From positions 626,458-690,457 of the forward strand of contig NC_015152.1 in assembly GCF_000190435.1 (NCBI RefSeq): 64,000 nucleotides of DNA, given 5' to 3'. The notes below the pieces were generated by a model. That model searched no databases. It saw only the letters and a list, made by a program, of their open reading frames with translations, and was not told the origin of the DNA. Position numbers and translations under genes: made by a program. Below are positions 2,092-25,001 of this stretch, one piece after another. This DNA is from Sphaerochaeta globosa str. Buddy (GTDB lineage: Bacteria; Spirochaetota; Spirochaetia; Sphaerochaetales; Sphaerochaetaceae). Numbering within the stretch: position 1 is the stretch's first letter; each line of letters starts with the position of its first letter.

Positions 2092-2123
2092 AAAAAGGCC
2101 ACCTCAAGGAAGGTGGCCTTTTT
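2092..2123. terminator. Bidirectional intrinsic terminator
   Basis: A stem AAAAAGGCCACCT / AGGTGGCCTTTTT around a six-base loop, with A and T runs on either side, separates two convergent genes. Both strands give a hairpin followed by U residues. The core GGCCACCT stem recurs after the paralogous genes at 3131 and 5624. Confidence 0.85.
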
Positions 2124-2136
2124 CAGCAATATTTGA

Positions 2137-2676
2137 TTACGTTGCAGTATAGGTGAAGGTTACGGTGCCTTCGTAGGTTCCTTCAACAGCAGCATCGAAG
2201 CTCGTCTGGTCGACCGAGAGGGAGATTTGATGGGACTCGCTGGAAAGGCCGGTCAGGCTGGCTACAGTGATAACATCAACAGCAGTGCCAGCAGTCGCTC
2301 CATCGGTGGTAAACGTAACGCCGTTCACTCCGACGGTGTAATCGATGTAGGCGGTGATGGAGCTGACAGTGCTGGCCATGGCGGTGGCTTCCATGGTCAC
2401 CGTGTATCCGGTACGGTTGTTGGACAAGGTGGAGAGATACGCATCAAAATCCTGTGACCCTGCCTCAGTCACTCCCAGAGGACTATCAAATCCATCAGCA
2501 GTATTAAAAGATCCGGGAGAAGTCCCTGTGAAAACTTCGGCTGTGATCTTCATCTTGTTGATACCTTGAATGGTGGTGCTCACATCGAAGCTTGAATCAG
2601 CAGGATTGGTGGCAGCGAAGAGGCCAACAGTGAATATGGTTACTATCAGAAGTACGGCTATGATGTTCTTTTTCAT
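2137..2676 (-). CDS. Small exported protein, paralogous family member A
   Basis: 179 residues with a clear signal peptide (MKKN, hydrophobic run, cleavage after LFA near residue 21). The mature part is Thr/Ser/Ala/Val rich, has no cysteine, and looks like an all-beta fold. It aligns with the products at 3131, 5624 and 23861: all share INKMKIT near residue 40, SNNRTGY-type in the middle and a G-Y-x-G-T-V-T-F-T-Y ending. That last strand resembles the closing strand of spore-coat-U or pilin-type Ig sandwiches, but this is only pattern resemblance. Start chosen because AAAGGAAC precedes the ATG. Monocistronic with its own promoter and terminator. Function unknown; a periplasmic or surface protein is the likeliest role. 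Confidence 0.8.
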   Translation of the reverse strand: MKKNIIAVLLIVTIFTVGLFAATNPADSSFDVSTTIQGINKMKITAEVFTGTSPGSFNTADGFDSPLGVTEAGSQDFDAYLSTLSNNRTGYTVTMEATAMASTVSSITAYIDYTVGVNGVTFTTDGATAGTAVDVITVASLTGLSSESHQISLSVDQTSFDAAVEGTYEGTVTFTYTAT

Positions 2677-2690
2677 TTTATGTTCCTTTC

Positions 2691-2780
2691 GAAGCTTTCA
2701 GCTCCGCTACAAGGCTGCTAATGTTCTGTTCAATTCCTTAAGCACATCTATACTATAGTAAAACACTAGACTTATGTCAA
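2691..2780 (-). promoter_or_regulatory. Promoter and leader stem-loop of family member A
   Basis: On the minus strand TTGACA (2775-2780), a 17-base spacer and TATAGT (2752-2757) form a near-consensus housekeeping promoter. The transcript would begin near a conserved GATGTGCTTA segment. Just before the ribosome site, GGAGC-TGAAA-GCTTC (2691-2705) can form a five-pair hairpin including one G-U pair. Confidence 0.8.
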
Positions 2781-2891
2781 CATGAAGAAGGCAAATTTGT
2801 ATTTCTAGCAAGGAAACCAAAAATATTACAGTATTAAATATAATAAAGCTATATATAAAAAAGAAAAAACAATCTTTATGATTTTTCTAGA

Positions 2892-2998
2892 CATGTGACA
2901 TAATGCAACAGAATTGATAGGATTTTAAGGAGATTCTAGAAAAATCAGTGTTGCATAGGCCTATTTATTAACTTGAAAATTGGAGCTCTGACATAAGC
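2892..2998. promoter_or_regulatory. Upstream boxes of family member A in an AT-rich spacer
   Basis: The spacer 2781-3074 is very AT-rich and contains no gene. It holds CATGTGACATAATGCAAC at 2892-2909 and TCTGACATAAGC at 2987-2998. Both resemble the ACTTRTGACA box found at the same distance upstream of the other paralogues. No regulator is known from the sequence. Confidence 0.45.
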
Positions 2999-3074
2999 AA
3001 ACCTCATGTCTTTACCCAGTAAATTGTGGGCATTGATGGCCTTCCTCCCCGTTGCCCCCATCTAGGAAAAGAAG

Positions 3075-3101
3075 AAGGCCACCTGCTGGACAGGTGGCCT
3101 T
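3075..3101 (-). terminator. Terminator of family member B
   Basis: AAGGCCACCTG / CAGGTGGCCTT with a five-base loop, followed on the minus strand by a short pyrimidine run. It is almost identical to the hairpin after member C. Confidence 0.75.
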
Positions 3102-3130
3102 GGACAGACAAGTTTATAGTGGTGGTTCTG

Positions 3131-3664
3131 TTAGTTGGCAATGTAGGTGAAAGTCACCGTTCCGGAGTAGTTGCCCTCGACTGCTGCATTGAAGCTGGTC
3201 GCATCGACTGACAGAGTGATGGGATGTGACTGGCTGGTAAGGCCGGTCAGGCTTGCAACGGTGATGACATCTACAGGAGTAACAACGGTTGCACCTGCAG
3301 TGGTGAGGGACTTGGTGTTAACACCAACGGTGTAGTTGATGTAGGAGGTGGTCTGACCTGCGACTGTACTGGTCATGGCCGTTGCACCCATGGTTACCTT
3401 GTAACCCGTGCGTTTGTTGGACATGGTGGACAGGTATGCGCTGAAGGTTTGAGCTCCCGGGGCTGTCACGGTAAGCGGGCCTGCATAGATGATTGCATCG
3501 TCGAAGGATACAGGAGTGGCTCCGTTGAAGGCGGCTGTGGTGATCTTCATTTTGTTGATGCCGGCGACAGCAGTAGATACGTTAAAGCTGGCGGGGTCAA
3601 CAGCGAAGGCAGAGACGGTGGAGAATACGATTAACAGAAGTACGGCGATGATGCTCTTTTTCAT
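3131..3664 (-). CDS. Small exported protein, paralogous family member B
   Basis: 177 residues; signal peptide MKKSIIAVLLL with cleavage after SAFA near residue 20. It is very close to member C (5624-6157) over its whole length, for example FNVSTAV, FSAYLSTMSN and the identical SYINYTVGVNTKSLTTAGAT block. Members B and C are therefore a recent duplication, while A and D are more distant. The mature domain has no Cys and only isolated aromatic residues, ending GNYSGTVTFTYIAN. It has its own promoter, leader hairpin and terminator. The role is unknown; strong regulatory signals suggest an abundant product (inference). Confidence 0.82.
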   Translation of the reverse strand: MKKSIIAVLLLIVFSTVSAFAVDPASFNVSTAVAGINKMKITTAAFNGATPVSFDDAIIYAGPLTVTAPGAQTFSAYLSTMSNKRTGYKVTMGATAMTSTVAGQTTSYINYTVGVNTKSLTTAGATVVTPVDVITVASLTGLTSQSHPITLSVDATSFNAAVEGNYSGTVTFTYIAN

Positions 3665-3679
3665 GATGTAATCCTTTTC

Positions 3680-3770
3680 GAAGCTTTCCGCTTCGGTGCA
3701 AGTTTCTATGTGTCCTGTGCCTTTTTCCTAAGCACATCTGTACTATACTGAAACAAGAGACTTATGTCAA
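3680..3770 (-). promoter_or_regulatory. Promoter and leader stem-loop of family member B
   Basis: TTGACA (3765-3770), 17 bases, TATAGT (3742-3747) on the minus strand. The leader carries GAAGC-GGAAA-GCTTC (3680-3694), a perfect five-pair hairpin directly before the AAAAGGAT ribosome site. Confidence 0.85.
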
Positions 3771-3880
3771 CAGATACTAAAAAAATCTGTAAAAAAAATA
3801 AATAAAATAGTATAATAGAATATATAAATGATGCAATTTAATATTATATATAGAAATAACAAAGTATCATTCGTTTCTCT

Positions 3881-3980
3881 TACTTATGACAACAATGCAC
3901 ATACAAAGAAAGACTGTTGAGAAGTCTCAAGAGAATTGATATATGTTAAACACTATAAAAGTCTGAACTATGACAGAAGT
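3881..3980. promoter_or_regulatory. Upstream boxes of family member B
   Basis: TACTTATGACAACAATGCAC at 3881-3900 and AACTATGACAGAAGT at 3966-3980 lie in an AT-rich spacer (3771-4183). The same two boxes recur almost letter for letter upstream of member C. The spacer must also hold the promoter of the divergent metallophosphoesterase gene, which I could not place with confidence. Confidence 0.5.
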
Positions 3981-4183
3981 ATGAATTGTCTCTTGACTAG
4001 GTTCCGAGCCCTGTGCTTTGGCGCAATTGCTGGTTGTGCAGAGAATTCCTCATGGGGTTCTGTACTGTGTGATATACTCGGAAATGTCACTTAATCTCTG
4101 TTGCTTGTACGGTAGGAGGCCTTGGATTGCATGCTGCCGGTAATAGGTTGGTATGAAGTAATTAGAAAAGGAGAATTTACTCT

Positions 4184-5482
4184 ATGAAAAAACGTTGGGT
4201 GGTATGTGGCTTGATCATCATGATCGTAAGTCTTCTTGGGTGTAAGCAGCTTGCAAGAACGGAGCAGGCAGTTCCTGGATCTGAGGCCTTATGGTCGGTG
4301 CAAAGTGAAGTAAGAAATAAAGTGGTGGTCGTAAGTGACCTTCATTTTGGAATTGATGATAGATACTCTGAGACGATTGAGAATCGCAAGGTGTTCATCA
4401 CCTTCTTGGAACGTCTTGGAGCCATGAGCGATGTAAGCGAGTTGGTTCTTGCTGGAGACTTCCTGGATGATTGGTACCTGCCTCTGACGTATCCTGCGTA
4501 TACGGACTCGGATGCCTTCTATCGGCAAGTCATACAAACCAACCAGGAAGTATTTGATGGATTGCAGGCGCTGCTGGATAAGGGGATACGAGTAACCTAT
4601 GTACCGGGAAACCACGACATGCTTTTGGAAAGTGCTGTTTTGCAGGAGGCGTTGCCCGGTATCAACCAAGCACGTGATGCCCGCGGGTTGGGTGCCTATG
4701 TGACAGGCCTTCGGGATGAGATTGTGATAGAGCATGGACACCGATACGATGTGTTCTCTGCACCTGAGCATATAGCCAATAAGGATTTGACCGTTGGCGT
4801 AGATTCCATGCTTCCTCCGGGATATTTCTATGCGCGCTTTGCAGCAAGCTGGGTCTTACAAGGAAAGCCTCTGATCAAAAAGGATTATCCGACGATCACC
4901 CAAGTTCCCGATCCCAAATCGAACTCCGATCAGTTTGGTGCCTATCTGTACTATAGAATATGGAATAGTGAATTGGGCAACCGGATCACTCCATTTGAAC
5001 GATTTGAGGATAAGGTTCTCGAGATGCAGCACAATGGATACAACGGTAACTATTCGATTGCAGATTTCTATCCTGTAGTACAGCGTGATGGTACAATTAG
5101 TGCCCCGACGCTTTTCAGGAATTTTCAACGTACATGGGATAAGAATCAGGAAATCAATCTGGTCGAGCATAAGACATCCTTCATCGAGAGCGTGGCGGGA
5201 ACACTGGACGGCGACTATTTCTTCAAACAGGCTAAGAAACAGTATTTGCTAAACCCCGAGAAAAAAGTGGATGTAGTGGTATTCGGCCATACCCATAGAC
5301 CGGGGCTAGAGAAACTACCCGATTATGATGGTAAGTACTATGTGAACAGTGGGACCTGGATCGATCATAACACCTACCACCCGGGTGCAAGCACCTTTGT
5401 GGTGATTACCTCGTCTGAGACTGTCGATACCGCTCAGCTCTACGAGTACTACAAGGATGGAACGGTAACATTGCTGAAGTAA
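4184..5482 (+). CDS. Lipoprotein metallophosphoesterase (calcineurin-like)
   Basis: 432 residues. A lipoprotein signal ends in LLGC with Cys20 as the likely lipidated residue, so the enzyme should be anchored in an envelope membrane. Metal-binding motifs of the calcineurin-like fold are present in order: SDLH (Asp52, His54), AGDFLDD (about 90-96), GNHD (about 145) and GHTH near residue 370. Family knowledge: such enzymes use two metal ions to cleave phosphomono- or diesters; the DLH/GDFLDD pattern is like UDP-diacylglucosamine hydrolase relatives. The substrate cannot be read from the sequence. AAGGAG precedes the ATG. It sits alone, opposite in direction to the exported paralogues on both sides. 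Confidence 0.85.
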   Translation: MKKRWVVCGLIIMIVSLLGCKQLARTEQAVPGSEALWSVQSEVRNKVVVVSDLHFGIDDRYSETIENRKVFITFLERLGAMSDVSELVLAGDFLDDWYLPLTYPAYTDSDAFYRQVIQTNQEVFDGLQALLDKGIRVTYVPGNHDMLLESAVLQEALPGINQARDARGLGAYVTGLRDEIVIEHGHRYDVFSAPEHIANKDLTVGVDSMLPPGYFYARFAASWVLQGKPLIKKDYPTITQVPDPKSNSDQFGAYLYYRIWNSELGNRITPFERFEDKVLEMQHNGYNGNYSIADFYPVVQRDGTISAPTLFRNFQRTWDKNQEINLVEHKTSFIESVAGTLDGDYFFKQAKKQYLLNPEKKVDVVVFGHTHRPGLEKLPDYDGKYYVNSGTWIDHNTYHPGASTFVVITSSETVDTAQLYEYYKDGTVTLLK

Positions 5483-5525
5483 TGGAATAGGCTAGCGTGA
5501 AGACACAAAGAGAAAGAATCAACTA

Positions 5526-5551
5526 GGGGAGCCGAGAAGGCTCCCCCTTTC
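5526..5551 (+). terminator. Terminator of the metallophosphoesterase gene
   Basis: GGGGAGCC / GGCTCCCC with a short GAGAA loop followed by CTTTCT, 43 bases after the stop codon. Confidence 0.8.
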
Positions 5552-5567
5552 TATCAGGACCAAAGAG

Positions 5568-5594
5568 AAGGCCACCTGCGAAACAGGTGGCCTT
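5568..5594 (-). terminator. Terminator of family member C
   Basis: AAGGCCACCTG / CAGGTGGCCTT with a five-base loop. The stem is identical to the one after member B, so the duplication included the terminator. Confidence 0.75.
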
Positions 5595-5623
5595 GGACAG
5601 ACAAGTTTGCATTGTTGGTTCTT

Positions 5624-6157
5624 TTAGTTTGCGGTATAGGTGAAGGTTACCGTCCCGGAGTAGGTGCCCTCGACTGCTGCATCGAAGCTGGTTGCATCGA
5701 CTGACAGGGAGATTGCATGAGACTGGCTTGCAAGGCCGGTCAGGCTGGCTACGGTGATGACTTCTACAGGGGTAACTACAGTTGCACCTGCAGTGGTGAG
5801 GGACTTGGTGTTAACACCTACGGTGTAGTTGATGTAGGAGGTGGTCTGTCCTGCGACTGCACTGGTCATAGCGGTTGCACCCATAGTCACTTTGTACCCA
5901 ATTCTGTTGTTGGACATGGTGGAAAGGTATGCACTGAAGGTCTGAGGTCCAGAGGTGGTTACCCCAAGAGGTCCGACGAATGCAAGCGCAGAATTGAAAG
6001 ATGCAGGAGTGGTTCCGCTGAAGGCGGCTTGCGTGATCTTCATCTTGTTGATGCCGTTGACAGCAGTAGAGACGTTGAAGCTGGCAGGGTCAACTGCGAA
6101 GGCTGATACAGTGGAGAGGGCGATTACCAGAAGTACGGCTACGATGTTTTTTTTCAT
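5624..6157 (-). CDS. Small exported protein, paralogous family member C
   Basis: 177 residues with signal peptide cleavage after SAFA. It differs from member B mainly in the exposed-looking segment around residues 45-70 (FSGTTPASFNSALAF instead of FNGATPVSFDDAIIY) while the rest is nearly the same. Such patchy divergence suggests that one loop or face is under different selection, which is inference. It ends GTYSGTVTFTYTAN. It has its own promoter and leader hairpin and a terminator shared in sequence with B. Function unknown. Confidence 0.82.
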   Translation of the reverse strand: MKKNIVAVLLVIALSTVSAFAVDPASFNVSTAVNGINKMKITQAAFSGTTPASFNSALAFVGPLGVTTSGPQTFSAYLSTMSNNRIGYKVTMGATAMTSAVAGQTTSYINYTVGVNTKSLTTAGATVVTPVEVITVASLTGLASQSHAISLSVDATSFDAAVEGTYSGTVTFTYTAN

Positions 6158-6172
6158 GATGTAATCCTTTTC

Positions 6173-6263
6173 GAAGCTTTCTGCTTCGGTGCAAGTTTCG
6201 TATTGTCCTGTGCCTTTTTCCTAAGCACACTCATACTATATAAAAACAGACGACTTATGTCAA
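6173..6263 (-). promoter_or_regulatory. Promoter and leader stem-loop of family member C
   Basis: TTGACA (6258-6263), 17 bases, TATAGT (6235-6240) on the minus strand. The hairpin GAAGC-AGAAA-GCTTC lies at 6173-6187 before the ribosome site. Confidence 0.85.
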
Positions 6264-6374
6264 CAGATTTTAAATAAAATAGTAAAAACTATTGAAAATT
6301 TTAAAAAACCATGAATGAAATATATTTATATTAATATATTATATATAAATAATGATGTTTGGCGCAGTTGTTAT

Positions 6375-6483
6375 ACTTGTGACAACAATGAACATTGGTG
6401 GAATGATTTTTCCCCTATTGTGCAAAGTATTAAGAAGATTGATAAAGATGAAACAATCAAGAAGTAACAACTATGACAGAAGT
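6375..6483. promoter_or_regulatory. Upstream boxes of family member C
   Basis: ACTTGTGACAACAATG at 6375-6390 and AACTATGACAGAAGT at 6469-6483, spaced as in member B. The rest of 6264-6555 is AT-rich and I see no gene or clear terminator in it. Confidence 0.5.
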
Positions 6484-10182: not shown

Positions 10183-10307
10183 GAAGGGCCTCCAGAGAGT
10201 GGTGTCTGGATATAATGCTTCGTGGAATAAAGGGGAATTCAAGAAAGGCTATACCTATGCGGTATACCCGTACGTAATGCTGTCTCTTTTTCCACGAAGA
10301 AATTATT
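10183..10307 (-). promoter_or_regulatory. Expression platform between riboswitch and btuB start
   Basis: On the minus strand CTTCGTGGAA just after the aptamer can pair with TTCCACGAAG further down. Nearer the start codon, CCAGA and TCTGG flank an eight-base loop, the second arm reaching the GGAGG ribosome site. No intrinsic terminator with a U-run is seen, so control of translation initiation is more likely than transcription termination. The exact switch cannot be settled by eye. Confidence 0.5.
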
Positions 10308-10447
10308 ATCTGGAAACGTCTCCTGGCTTACGACTCTTTTTACTGACAGGCCTTCTCATCCGAAGAGGACAATGGCGTATCTGCGTTCATCATCGATTAC
10401 AGTGGCGGGACCGCCGGGGAATCACACCCCGTTCCGTTTTTCCAGAT
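10308..10447 (-). promoter_or_regulatory. Cobalamin (B12) riboswitch aptamer
   Basis: The minus strand carries the B12-box core GCCAGGAGAC (10317-10329), the conserved GCGGTCCCGCCACTGT segment (10399-10414) and the GGTGTGATTCC segment just before it. The ends ATCTGGAAA (10439-10447) and TTTCCAGAT (10308-10316) pair as the closing helix. This matches the adenosylcobalamin riboswitch family. Binding of cobalamin would be expected to lower expression of the btuB-exbB-exbD-exbD-tonB operon. Confidence 0.95.
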
Positions 10448-10459
10448 CCAGCGATTCCT

Positions 10460-10489
10460 ATCCTAGAAGAAGAGCGGGGGGGAGGTCAA
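10460..10489 (-). promoter_or_regulatory. Probable promoter of the btuB operon
   Basis: TTGACC (10484-10489), an 18-base spacer and TAGGAT (10460-10465) lie just upstream of the riboswitch and touch the end of the AlbA_2-type gene. Confidence 0.55.
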
Positions 10490-21086: not shown

Positions 21087-22892
21087 GTAACTACTCAGGT
21101 CACCTAACAGGCTGATTCAGAAAATCAAGAGAGAACGTACCTGCAAAGACCTGGGATAGTGCCTCTATTGGACCGAGCCCGTTTTTGCGGCAAGTATCGA
21201 TGATGGAGAATATGGTAGCGAAACGCTCCCCTCCATCACTTGCTCTGAACGTGCCAGCTATCTGTATTTTTTTCTTCGGAAGGCGATAAGACTTCTCCGC
21301 AATATTATTTGAGTACGGGACGTTGAAGTCAGTGAAGAATCTCATCACATCGGCCTTGAGTTTCTGCAACCTGTCCACCAAACTCCGGGCTGTACCCTTC
21401 CTTGGCCTTCCCCTGCCTTTTTTTAGCACCTTGGGGATGGGGTTCCTTCTGATCCCGCTCCCCACTATCTTGTCATACTGGTTACTGAAACCCTTGAGCA
21501 TGGTACTGGGGGCCTTGGTGACACCCTCGGCAAGAAGCTTGTTCTTGGTCACATACATACTCATCAGCAGCTTCTGGAACTGTCTTGCCCATCTTTGCTT
21601 GTAGTTGTCAGTGACACCCTGCAGCTCACGGTCTATATGGGCACAGCAGAGTGCGTGGGCAGCACCAGCATAGTCCTTGTGGTAATAGGAACTCCAGCAA
21701 TCGTGGACTGCCACACCCTTGAAATGAGGAAGCACCCCACAATCGTCGATACCTGGCTTGCCCCTTTTTGGACTGCTGACAAGGAGTGTCAGGTCCTTGG
21801 TGGATGCGGTATGCATCCAGTGGTTCTTGCCACAGACGCGGATGCCTGTCTCGTCAAAGCCGATGCTATGGGAGTCGAGCAGCAGCTTCCTGAGCTTGGG
21901 AAGCTGCTGCTTGCATTTGTCTGAGCAGGAAAGGATCATGTTGTTCACCGTCGCATCACTCATGGTGATTCCGGCAAGGGCATTGATTGTCTCTGCTATC
22001 CTGGACATGCTCATCATCCCAAAGGAACTCAGGGTGACAACCAGGGACTTGAGCGTATCACCGTACTGGAAGTGTGAATTGACACCTGCAGGATATTCCC
22101 CTCTGATGATCGCCCCTCCCTGTATGGGACAACTGTATTGCACCTGGTCAAATTGTGTCTGGTAAGCCTGTATGGCCAAATCGACGACATTACGCGAACC
22201 GACAACGGTGGCCTCACATTTGCCGAAAAGGGGACAACCTTCACAATCTTTGGGCAGACAGCGCTCAATTGCATCAGGTGCTGACTTGAGTTCCATTGTC
22301 TTGTCGGGATGGCCTTTCTGTCCGCCATTGGTCTTCTTGGTCGTACCTTTGCCATTCCTGCTATTGAGGGTGGATGGCTTCGGATTGGGCTTTTTGCAGA
22401 AATCCGTCGAGGGTGGCTTGCTGCTGTTGGAACTGTCCTTGTTCACCTGTTCCCTGAGATTGGCAAGTTCAGCATCTTTTTCCTTGATGATTGACTTGAG
22501 CTCTGTAATGGCTTTGGTGAATTCCTTGGCCTGTGCCTGACTGGATTTCTGCAGCTCCTTGTTCTGGCTGAGGAGTTCTGATACCTGGGATACCAATCGG
22601 GAATTGGACATGGCTAGCAAATCAATCTTATGATTGAGCTGCTCAAAATCCTTCCTGTTGTTCCCTTTCTGGTCCATCTAATTCCTCTCTTACAATGGAG
22701 TTAGTGTAATATAAAAGGGGTTTAAATGCAACTAGAAAACGATATATTACAAGGATTTAGAGCCCCTTTAGGGAAGGTTTCGAGCCCTAATTGCCAACGG
22801 TCAATAACTGGGGAAAAGAACTTTTTGGGTCTTTGCAAAGCAAAGGGACTGGCTCAAAAGAGAGAATGATGGTTAGACACCTGAGTAGTTAC
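21087..22892 (-). mobile_element. IS66-family insertion sequence with intact ends and target duplication
   Basis: Inverted repeats begin GTAACTACTCAGGT at 21087 and end ACCTGAGTAGTTAC at 22892. Both sides are flanked by the 8-base direct repeat CCCATGTC (21079-21086 and 22893-22900). GTAA termini and 8-base duplications are typical of IS66. The 1806-base element has a single gene, a tnpC-like transposase, without tnpA and tnpB, as in the ISBst12 subgroup. Perfect duplication implies recent insertion. Confidence 0.93.
21100..22677 (-). CDS. IS66-family (ISBst12-like) transposase
   Basis: 525 residues. An N-terminal coiled coil (about 10-85), a Ser/Pro/Lys-rich linker with SSNSSKPPS typical of IS66, a zinc-finger-like CEGCPLFGKC segment (about 150), and the DDE core. 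Catalytic residues appear in GFDETGIR, AVHDCWSSYY and AEKSYRLPKKK. Length is normal for the family and no break is seen, so the enzyme should be active. It fills almost the whole element. Confidence 0.93.
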   Translation of the reverse strand: MDQKGNNRKDFEQLNHKIDLLAMSNSRLVSQVSELLSQNKELQKSSQAQAKEFTKAITELKSIIKEKDAELANLREQVNKDSSNSSKPPSTDFCKKPNPKPSTLNSRNGKGTTKKTNGGQKGHPDKTMELKSAPDAIERCLPKDCEGCPLFGKCEATVVGSRNVVDLAIQAYQTQFDQVQYSCPIQGGAIIRGEYPAGVNSHFQYGDTLKSLVVTLSSFGMMSMSRIAETINALAGITMSDATVNNMILSCSDKCKQQLPKLRKLLLDSHSIGFDETGIRVCGKNHWMHTASTKDLTLLVSSPKRGKPGIDDCGVLPHFKGVAVHDCWSSYYHKDYAGAAHALCCAHIDRELQGVTDNYKQRWARQFQKLLMSMYVTKNKLLAEGVTKAPSTMLKGFSNQYDKIVGSGIRRNPIPKVLKKGRGRPRKGTARSLVDRLQKLKADVMRFFTDFNVPYSNNIAEKSYRLPKKKIQIAGTFRASDGGERFATIFSIIDTCRKNGLGPIEALSQVFAGTFSLDFLNQPVR

Positions 22893-23860: not shown

Positions 23861-24460
23861 TTAGTTGACAGTATAGTTAAATGTGATATCACCAACATAA
23901 TTGCCTGCAGTCTTATTTGCTACGTTTGACTCTAAGGTAACTTGAACGGTTTTTACATCTCCCAGACGTAGGCCAGTACCTGCAGCAATTGTCATATAAG
24001 AAACAGCAGTTGTATTAGAAGCAGTGTTGTAAGGATTAGCACCTCCAGTGACAGTATAATCAATTGAATCAACAGTAGTTGTGACCTCAGTAGGAATTCC
24101 TTCGACATCTTGAGTCGTTGTAATGTTGTATTTAAGCTTGGATGCTTGAACTTTAACTTCAACTCCTAACCTGTTATTAGTCCTTGTCTGTAAATAACCG
24201 ACAATCTGAGCACTTGTCGAGCTAGTATTAACTGAATTAGCAGACAGTGCAGAATCATATACAGAACTAGATGCTCTAATTTCCGCAGCCTGCGCATTAG
24301 TCGTCCAACTAGTAGGAGTAGCAGCAGCTGTAATTTTCATCTCATTTATAGCATATACCGAAGTCTTAACAAATAATGACACATCAGCTGGCGCAGTAGC
24401 CGCAAACACACCAACCATTCCGATTACCAGGACCAACAGGATAGCAATTGTCTTTTTCAT
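23861..24460 (-). CDS. Small exported protein, paralogous family member D
   Basis: 199 residues from the ATG at 24460 (MKKTIAILLVLVIGMVGVFAA, signal cleavage near residue 21). The ATG further upstream lies in the leader hairpin and is not used. Mature part begins PADVSLFVKTSVYAINEMKIT, aligning with INKMKIT of members A-C, and ends AGNYVGDITFNYTVN. It is longer than A-C by about 20 residues and lacks the long spacer-free similarity of B and C. No cysteine in the mature part. Located 18 kb from the other three yet with the same promoter design. Function unknown. Confidence 0.78.
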   Translation of the reverse strand: MKKTIAILLVLVIGMVGVFAATAPADVSLFVKTSVYAINEMKITAAATPTSWTTNAQAAEIRASSSVYDSALSANSVNTSSTSAQIVGYLQTRTNNRLGVEVKVQASKLKYNITTTQDVEGIPTEVTTTVDSIDYTVTGGANPYNTASNTTAVSYMTIAAGTGLRLGDVKTVQVTLESNVANKTAGNYVGDITFNYTVN

Positions 24461-24476
24461 TTGTTCTTCCTTTTTA

Positions 24477-24567
24477 GGAGCTTCTTTTGCTCCTGTGCAA
24501 GTTTCGTTCTTTCGGCTCATTTCCCTGAGCACATTTGTATATTAGGGATAAAAGAGACTTATGTCAA
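24477..24567 (-). promoter_or_regulatory. Promoter and leader stem-loop of family member D
   Basis: TTGACA (24562-24567), 17 bases, TAATAT (24539-24544). Leader hairpin GGAGC-AAAAGAA-GCTCC at 24477-24493: the stem differs from members B and C but keeps pairing on both sides. Confidence 0.82.
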
Positions 24568-24664: not shown

Positions 24665-24679
24665 ACTTGTGACAACACG
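24665..24679. promoter_or_regulatory. Upstream box of family member D
   Basis: ACTTGTGACAACACG, about 100 bases upstream of the -35, as in members B and C. The spacer 24568-25001 is otherwise AT-rich and must hold the liv operon promoter; TATAAT at about 24736 is a candidate -10 without a clear -35. Confidence 0.45.
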
Positions 24680-25001
24680 TTGTATGTAGTAGCAATCTAG
24701 CAAAACGTATGATACGAGAACGCTTCCTATTAGCTGTATAATACACAGCAAAACTCAAGACATACGTTAGAAGTTGAGTAGAAGATGAATCTGCATTATT
24801 TGCACTCTAGGTGTATGAATATTCACTCATGCTAGGGATATTGCCGTTTCAAACCGCAAAAATATTCAATTTGTGCGAAGATTGAAGAAACTTTTTTACA
24901 TTGTTACAGAAAATTTTTAAGTATATATGCACTTTTCACTTGTGCAGGAACCACAGAGAACGTAATAATAATTTCATCTATGTATATGGAGGGCTCTTGT
25001 T

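Follow-up and report, generated by a model that had tools for sequence, protein, structure and literature searches.

Chaperone-usher pili are usually taught to be encoded by self-contained operons, and structured 5′ leaders of the ompA type are found on the mRNAs of abundant outer-membrane proteins. The archaic (sigma) class of chaperone-usher systems is also known outside the beta- and gamma-proteobacteria, and non-classical (archaic/alternative) chaperones are marked by a super-conserved proline and by an arginine anchoring the C-terminus (PMC4654587). The usher family TC 1.B.11 is listed in a survey table for Proteobacteria, Spirochaetae, Cyanobacteria and Deinococcus-Thermus, with no subunits, loci or genus given (PMC4827864). 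The present analysis concerns a stretch of 64,000 nucleotides of the Sphaerochaeta globosa str. Buddy genome (contig NC_015152.1, positions 626,458 to 690,457; hereafter the window), which carries four genes for small exported proteins, designated A, B, C and D. We propose, with a probability of roughly 0.75, that A-D are dispersed subunits of one non-classical chaperone-usher surface fibre. Since spirochaete ushers already stand in the survey table, what is new is not that the phylum has an usher but how the genes are organised, which family the subunits form and that the subunit genes carry a leader RNA. In the literature library that was searched, no paper joins Sphaerochaeta with chaperone-usher systems.

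The closest described systems are the alpha fimbriae CS1, CS17 and CFA/I, whose major subunits CS17, CooA and CfaB match best in the PDB, both by profile and by fold, and the E. coli common pilus (EcpABCDE), whose EcpB is nearest to the Sphaerochaeta chaperone by hhalign. Shared features would be subunits of about 150 residues with an immunoglobulin (Ig)-like fold, an N-terminal donor strand and a C-terminal last strand. Unlike in the alpha fimbriae, the genes A-D lie outside the chaperone-usher operon, occur several to a genome and have a promoter and a leader each; no tip adhesin was identified, and the usher, with about 1,100 amino acids (aa) and a long proline-rich N-terminal extension, is too divergent for Pfam. 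The archaic (sigma) pili (Csu, CupE) are similar in that CsuE and CsuA/B are among the sequence and structural matches and the chaperone is non-classical, but they differ from the present case, in which the subunit genes stand outside the operon. As further differences from the two classes, respectively, neither Fimbrial_CS1 (PF04449) nor spore coat U (SCPU, PF05229) of Pfam matched any of 34 family members above the gathering score. The leader RNA resembles ompA-type leaders in having one hairpin near the 5′-end and another beside the ribosome-binding site of a strongly expressed envelope protein gene; it differs from them by a conserved CUUGCAC, a GGGAAA loop, genus-wide covariation, its confinement to a single protein family and the absence of any match over the leaders in Rfam 15, at the gathering threshold or at E-values up to 1.

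The exported protein family

Signal peptides are present in the open reading frame (ORF) translations of all four proteins, and one family profile picks up A, B, C and D; the tandem of exported proteins A-C and the fourth gene D described by the initial annotation thus form a single family. The identity of aligned sequences is 83% between B and C, 67% between A and C and 34% between D and C. For D, the full ORF covers 23861-24532 on the minus strand, with the likely start (MKKTIAI) at 24460. Whole-genome searches found members in 22 of 24 genomes of the genus and in none of 16 genomes from other families of the class, and the several copies per genome seen genus-wide agree with the multi-copy family that had been anticipated. 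Outside the genus, weak members were found only in the same bacterial family, plus one in another family. The S. globosa genome holds five close members (A-D and a copy at 277 kb) and at least three distant ones. Three distant members form an array at 3.234 Mb; another genus of the same bacterial family has an array in synteny with it (G262, L105), and the array proteins are homologous to A-D (hhalign, 1.8e-18). Two genes that by eye encode GntR-like regulators (L099, 13659-15570) are divergent from this array, and a similar gene lies near the syntenic array of the other genus; the GntR-like genes are candidates for the regulator of A-D.

Searched as single sequences against Pfam, NCBIfam and the PDB, A-D gave chance-level matches only (MtrH, AnkI, DUF7292). 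The profile of the 34 members matched the CS17 major pilin (8ehs) in the PDB at 2.8e-5, CS1 CooA at 0.054 and CsuE at 1.3. With the profile of the D group alone, CS17 was matched at 2.2e-4 and CsuE at 0.03, and the profile of the distant array, built from this and another genus, matched CooA at 0.031 and CsuE at 0.079. The AlphaFold model of mature C has a predicted local distance difference test (pLDDT) score of 62.8, with the first 42 residues unstructured. Foldseek placed CfaB, FimA and PapA on top for this model, and rows 1-5 of VIA-align include CfaE, CsuE, CS17 and CfaB with Z of 6.6-7.0, values that by themselves could perhaps reflect a common beta-sandwich arrangement. In the first strand after the signal peptide, large hydrophobic residues make up 97-100% of family columns 27, 29 and 33 and alternate with polar ones, and in the last strand, ending three residues from the C-terminus, columns 166, 170, 172 and 174 are 100% hydrophobic. 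These patterns would fit donor-strand subunits without a last strand of their own.

In the family tree B and C are sisters, placed beside the single gene of the congener G013, and A is older. The tandem is lineage-specific, as G005 (L040) and G013 (L092) carry a single family gene here, flanked by the 419-aa gene and tonB, and lack the phosphoesterase at this position. A lipoprotein-like metallophosphoesterase gene between B and C (4184-5482, plus strand), not found at this place in G005 and G013, may either have been left in place or have been inserted. The B/C repeat extends from the terminator as far as a site lying 220 bp before the −35 element (repeat blocks of 89% and 84%). The window has three copies of the terminator stem GGCCACCT, one following each of A, B and C, where 0 are expected. 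Both the common terminator and the claim that the duplication took control signals along are borne out by this repeat, the shared terminators and the upstream sites described below. The statement that B and C are nearly the same protein except for one patch was correct about the patch, since residues 45-72 hold 16 of about 37 nonsynonymous B-C differences, but B and C differ elsewhere too. The ratio of nonsynonymous to synonymous substitution rates (dN/dS) is 0.18 across B and C as a whole and rises to 0.28 within the patch, with dS doubled there too. Positive selection on the patch was rejected because dS is raised along with dN, and for the same reason uneven recombination with homogenised flanks would explain the patch better than selection for variation.

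The chaperone-usher operon and proposed fibre assembly

The Pfam usher (PF00577), PapD_N and TcfC models gave no match in the S. globosa genome. These negatives were misleading, as divergent orthologs surfaced later via the weak PF00577 match of a long ORF in one congener (G004; 9.3e-5, below the cut-off). A profile of this ORF and its G007 ortholog detected an usher-like ORF in 24 of 26 congeners, one per genome, and in 13 of 13 good genomes; the S. globosa copy is at 1.22 Mb. The label usher-like stands for the PF00577 match below the cut-off together with the adjacent chaperone. In G006 (L122), a contig-rich assembly, the usher ORF has one in-frame stop.

The chaperone gene lies directly upstream in every usher locus holding that flank (23 matches) and is preceded by a TetR-type gene. 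PapD_N (PF00345) matches three of six chaperone members, with 32.1 bits against a cut-off of 23 in the G017 ortholog; the latter is 63% identical to the S. globosa protein, which itself is below PapD_N detection. All chaperone orthologs match BcfB weakly, and comparison with EcpB of E. coli K-12 by hhalign gave 4.1e-5. The super-conserved proline of the chaperone aligns with EcpB Pro60, and the invariant arginine of ELSFRL lies three columns off EcpB Arg89 in a MAFFT alignment, which fits if the gap is moved. Across the genus the chaperone is about 80% identical and the pilins far less, which is the usual asymmetry between machine and subunit.

In the proposed system, A-D would be exported via their signal peptides, after which the PapD-like chaperone would hold them in the periplasm. 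By way of the neighbouring usher, the subunits would be threaded into a fibre, each completing the incomplete Ig fold of the next with its N-terminal strand (residues ~27-41). In contrast to ordinary operons, chaperone and usher stand by themselves, and the presumed subunit genes are dispersed in arrays as duplicated and diversified single-gene transcription units. Common control of these units would be exerted through the same promoter element, upstream sites at fixed spacing and the two-hairpin leader, which, from its place beside the ribosome-binding site, may set mRNA stability or translation.

Several results weigh against this assignment. The two-gene operon is 0.59 Mb from A-D and contains no subunit gene, so the partnership rests on co-occurrence and fold. 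The S. globosa usher has no match in Pfam, and with PF00577 the best ortholog reaches 21.9 bits against a cut-off of 27.1; the usher profile matched no usher in the PDB, and hhalign against E. coli ushers was weak (10%), the sequences being too divergent for reliable alignment. Taken alone, the profile of the A-C-like group matched none of the PDB pilins. Among the AlphaFold models, that of C is mediocre, the other four scored 30-38, and that of D was unusable (pLDDT 35.7). Finally, the leader model described below gave no match in G008, G020 and G040, which are congeners with an usher.

Two other explanations of the proteins were weighed against the chaperone-usher fibre. It is improbable that A-D are usher-independent coat or periplasmic proteins, that is, pilin-like beta-sandwiches secreted or anchored in the envelope, with the operon serving other subunits. 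Donor-strand fibres that need no usher exist (the cannula protein CanA and the archaeal 0406 filament), both appear in the same structural list with similar Z, middling Z values are common among beta-sandwiches, and subunit genes and machine are genetically unlinked. However, no other subunit candidates lie beside the usher, the sequence profiles point specifically to chaperone-usher pilins, and the chaperone, the usher and the A-D family are all kept in nearly every genome of the genus. Very improbable in our judgement are phase- or antigenically varying adhesins, whose copies would be switched on singly or would recombine to alter the surface. The near-identical tandem copies, the patch in which B and C diverge between homogenised flanks, and one decayed and one frameshifted copy in congeners would suit such a system, but the promoters at all copies are intact and in fixed orientation, the low dN/dS of B and C with raised dS in the patch points the other way, and the region has no inverted repeats of at least 30 nt, short ones as in fim not having been searched for. 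Of the phase- or condition-specific coat or adhesin proteins suggested by the initial annotation, the surface class is therefore retained and sharpened to pilin-like subunits with a chaperone-usher operon, while phase-specific expression found no support. Condition-specific expression of A-D is possible, given the shared operator-like sites and the leader RNA.

Promoters, upstream sites and the leader RNA

The TTGACA-17-TATAGT/TAATAT promoters of the initial annotation were located before each of A-D, with TTGACATAAGTC as the −35 region (Table 1). The extended pattern TTGACATAAGNC-N10-12-TANNNT occurs six times in the whole 3.3-Mb genome, five times before family members and once before a distant member, and its reversed control does not occur (0). 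In an unbiased 8-mer count upstream of 36 promoters, GTCATAAG, TTGTGACA, TGTCATAA and their relatives rank top. TTGTCAYAAG sites lie 107-108 or 120-121 bp before the −35 element and ACTTNTGNCATAGTT-like sites 207 or 219-220 bp before it. All seven TTGWCAYAAGT matches in the window are at A-D, with 0.18 expected, an enrichment that, as for the upstream sites in general, overstates independence because the members share descent. By sequence, the upstream sites look like operators of one regulator. A shared operator before the chaperone-usher operon was rejected and is not used as evidence: the site is probably the −35 of a divergent transfer RNA (tRNA) gene. This tRNA-like gene (L140, ~2030-2140), divergent from the TetR-chaperone-usher operon, appears to have TTGACACAAGT at −35, the same core as in the pilin promoters.

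The leaders can be aligned for all except the most divergent members. In the covariance model, hairpin 1 (GUGCUU/AAGGCAC, with a loop like AGGAAAA) is followed by the conserved ACUUGCAC, and hairpin 2 (CGAAGC/GCUUCG, with the variants GGAGC/GCUCC and GGGGC/GCCC) by the Shine-Dalgarno sequence. Among 31 distinct leaders, in an alignment that had been fitted to the covariance model, 10 of 12 pairs changed on both sides (51 cells versus 16.1 in shuffles) and 95.6% of cells were paired, versus 35-52% for slid versions. RNAalifold gave the same helices, and when each leader was folded without an alignment, 30 of 31 formed both hairpins (mean z −1.86). The two-hairpin leader is a new structured RNA, previously undescribed.

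When the best 150 first-look candidates of the S. globosa genome were scored, exactly four matched the leader model, namely those of A-D. Among the congeners, the model has matches in 23 of 26; nearly all of these matches precede family members, and the exceptions examined include a decayed member. The leader is lacking before the family members found outside the genus and before some members within it (the 277-kb copy and some G017 copies). One dead copy with its leader kept is seen in L039 (5059-5130), where the leader RNA is followed by a decayed pilin start with ATA for ATG. At another place in L039 (14967-15180, equal to L031 1288-1501), a GC-rich, repeat-like insert separates the leader from the start codon of a family member. 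A distant array gene (L098, 2300-2430, minus strand) has the promoter TTGACATATGTT and the leader GGGAAAGATCTTGCAC before AGGAGG, without hairpin 2. CsrA was discarded as a reader of the GGA-containing loop, as PF02599 was absent from the S. globosa genome and positive in control genomes.

The most probable role of the leader is to increase or time the translation of the abundant mRNAs that encode the subunits. A passive role, which concerns the leader alone and is compatible with the pilus explanation, is given slightly better than even odds: hairpin 1 would shield the 5′-end, hairpin 2 would keep the ribosome-binding site open, and CUUGCAC would be part of the fold, its CUU being able to pair with AAG of the Shine-Dalgarno sequence. 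This agrees with a hairpin 2 ending 0-4 nt before the Shine-Dalgarno sequence in nearly all members, with a strong promoter and no alternative terminator seen, and with many minimum-energy folds that pair CUU with AAG; against it, the sequences of CUUGCAC and of the GGGAAA-type loop are conserved beyond what a mere stabiliser requires, and CTTGCAC recurs in the leader of the distant array gene, where the second hairpin is missing. Rather unlikely is a dispersed pilus regulon in which a dedicated regulatory leader (a switch or small-RNA target, with sensing through CUUGCAC) would act with family-specific operators and subunits would be chosen at the RNA level. For the DNA elements it is possible, though less probable, that TTGACATAAGTC is merely the best −35 of strong promoters in the genus and that the upstream sites are remnants of duplication. 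The copies are indeed related by descent, and the tRNA gene mentioned above appears to carry the same core, but the extended promoter pattern is found genome-wide at family genes only, 10 of 11 distinct TTGWCAYAAG sites in 157 kb are at family or chaperone-usher loci, and GTCATAAG and TTGTGACA top the unbiased count with two fixed distances kept in widely diverged members.

Feature coordinates and significance

Table 1. Coordinates of the genes and control elements (window positions unless marked as genome positions)
Feature	Position	Strand	Basis or remark
A, exported pilin-like protein, 179 aa	2137..2676	-	ORF, signal peptide, family profile
B, exported pilin-like protein, 177 aa	3131..3664	-	ORF, signal peptide, family profile
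C, exported pilin-like protein, 177 aa	5624..6157	-	ORF, signal peptide, family profile, fold model
D, divergent exported pilin-like protein, 199 aa from likely start	23861..24460	-	family profile
Leader RNA of A, degenerate (first hairpin and CTTGCAC broken)	2677..2750	-	covariance model, 47 bits
Leader RNA of B (hairpin 1, conserved ACTTGCAC, hairpin 2, Shine-Dalgarno)	3665..3740	-	covariance model
Leader RNA of C	6158..6233	-	covariance model
Leader RNA of D	24463..24537	-	covariance model
Promoter of A, TTGACATAAGTC...TATAGT	2752..2780	-	TTGACA-17-TATAGT
Promoter of B, TTGACATAAGTC...TATAGT	3742..3770	-	TTGACA-17-TATAGT
Promoter of C, TTGACATAAGTC...TATAGT	6235..6263	-	TTGACA-17-TATAGT
Promoter of D, TTGACATAAGTC...TAATAT	24539..24567	-	TTGACA-17-TAATAT
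Terminator hairpin GGCCACCT, common to A and the convergent 419-aa gene	2097..2118	.	
Terminator hairpin GGCCACCT behind B	3077..3099	-	
Terminator hairpin GGCCACCT behind C	5570..5592	-	
Operator-like site CATTATGTCACATGT upstream of A	2891..2905	-	weaker
Operator-like site TTGTCATAAGT upstream of B	3882..3892	-	
Operator-like site TTGTCACAAGT upstream of C	6375..6385	-	
Operator-like site TTGTCACAAGT upstream of D	24665..24675	-	
Far operator-like site GCTTATGTCAGAGCT upstream of A	2984..2998	-	
Far operator-like site ACTTCTGTCATAGTT upstream of B	3966..3980	-	
Far operator-like site ACTTCTGTCATAGTT upstream of C	6469..6483	-	
Far operator-like site ACTTCTAACGTATGT upstream of D	24760..24774	-	
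PapD-like chaperone, 254 aa	genome 1,218,918-1,219,682		two-gene operon with usher
Usher-like ORF	genome 1,219,722-1,223,027		adjoins chaperone

An IS66-like transposase gene, identified by eye, lies between the A-C array and D (21100-22677, minus strand). A cobalamin riboswitch (RF00174, 92 bits; 10296-10481, minus strand) precedes an operon for a BtuB-like receptor, ExbB, ExbD, ExbD and TonB, and in G017 and G016 the BtuB-like operon likewise has a family member as neighbour. Cobalamin control of A-C via this adjoining operon was rejected, as the riboswitch is that of the receptor operon and none was found before A-D.

Little work has been done on the surface of these non-model spirochaetes, in which a single divergent chaperone-usher pair seems to serve a set of unlinked, duplicating subunit genes under a common promoter and leader RNA. 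Exported proteins that are 'hypothetical' throughout the genus gain a family name and a testable route of assembly, and the new structured RNA, with its good covariation, has a function that is open to direct testing.

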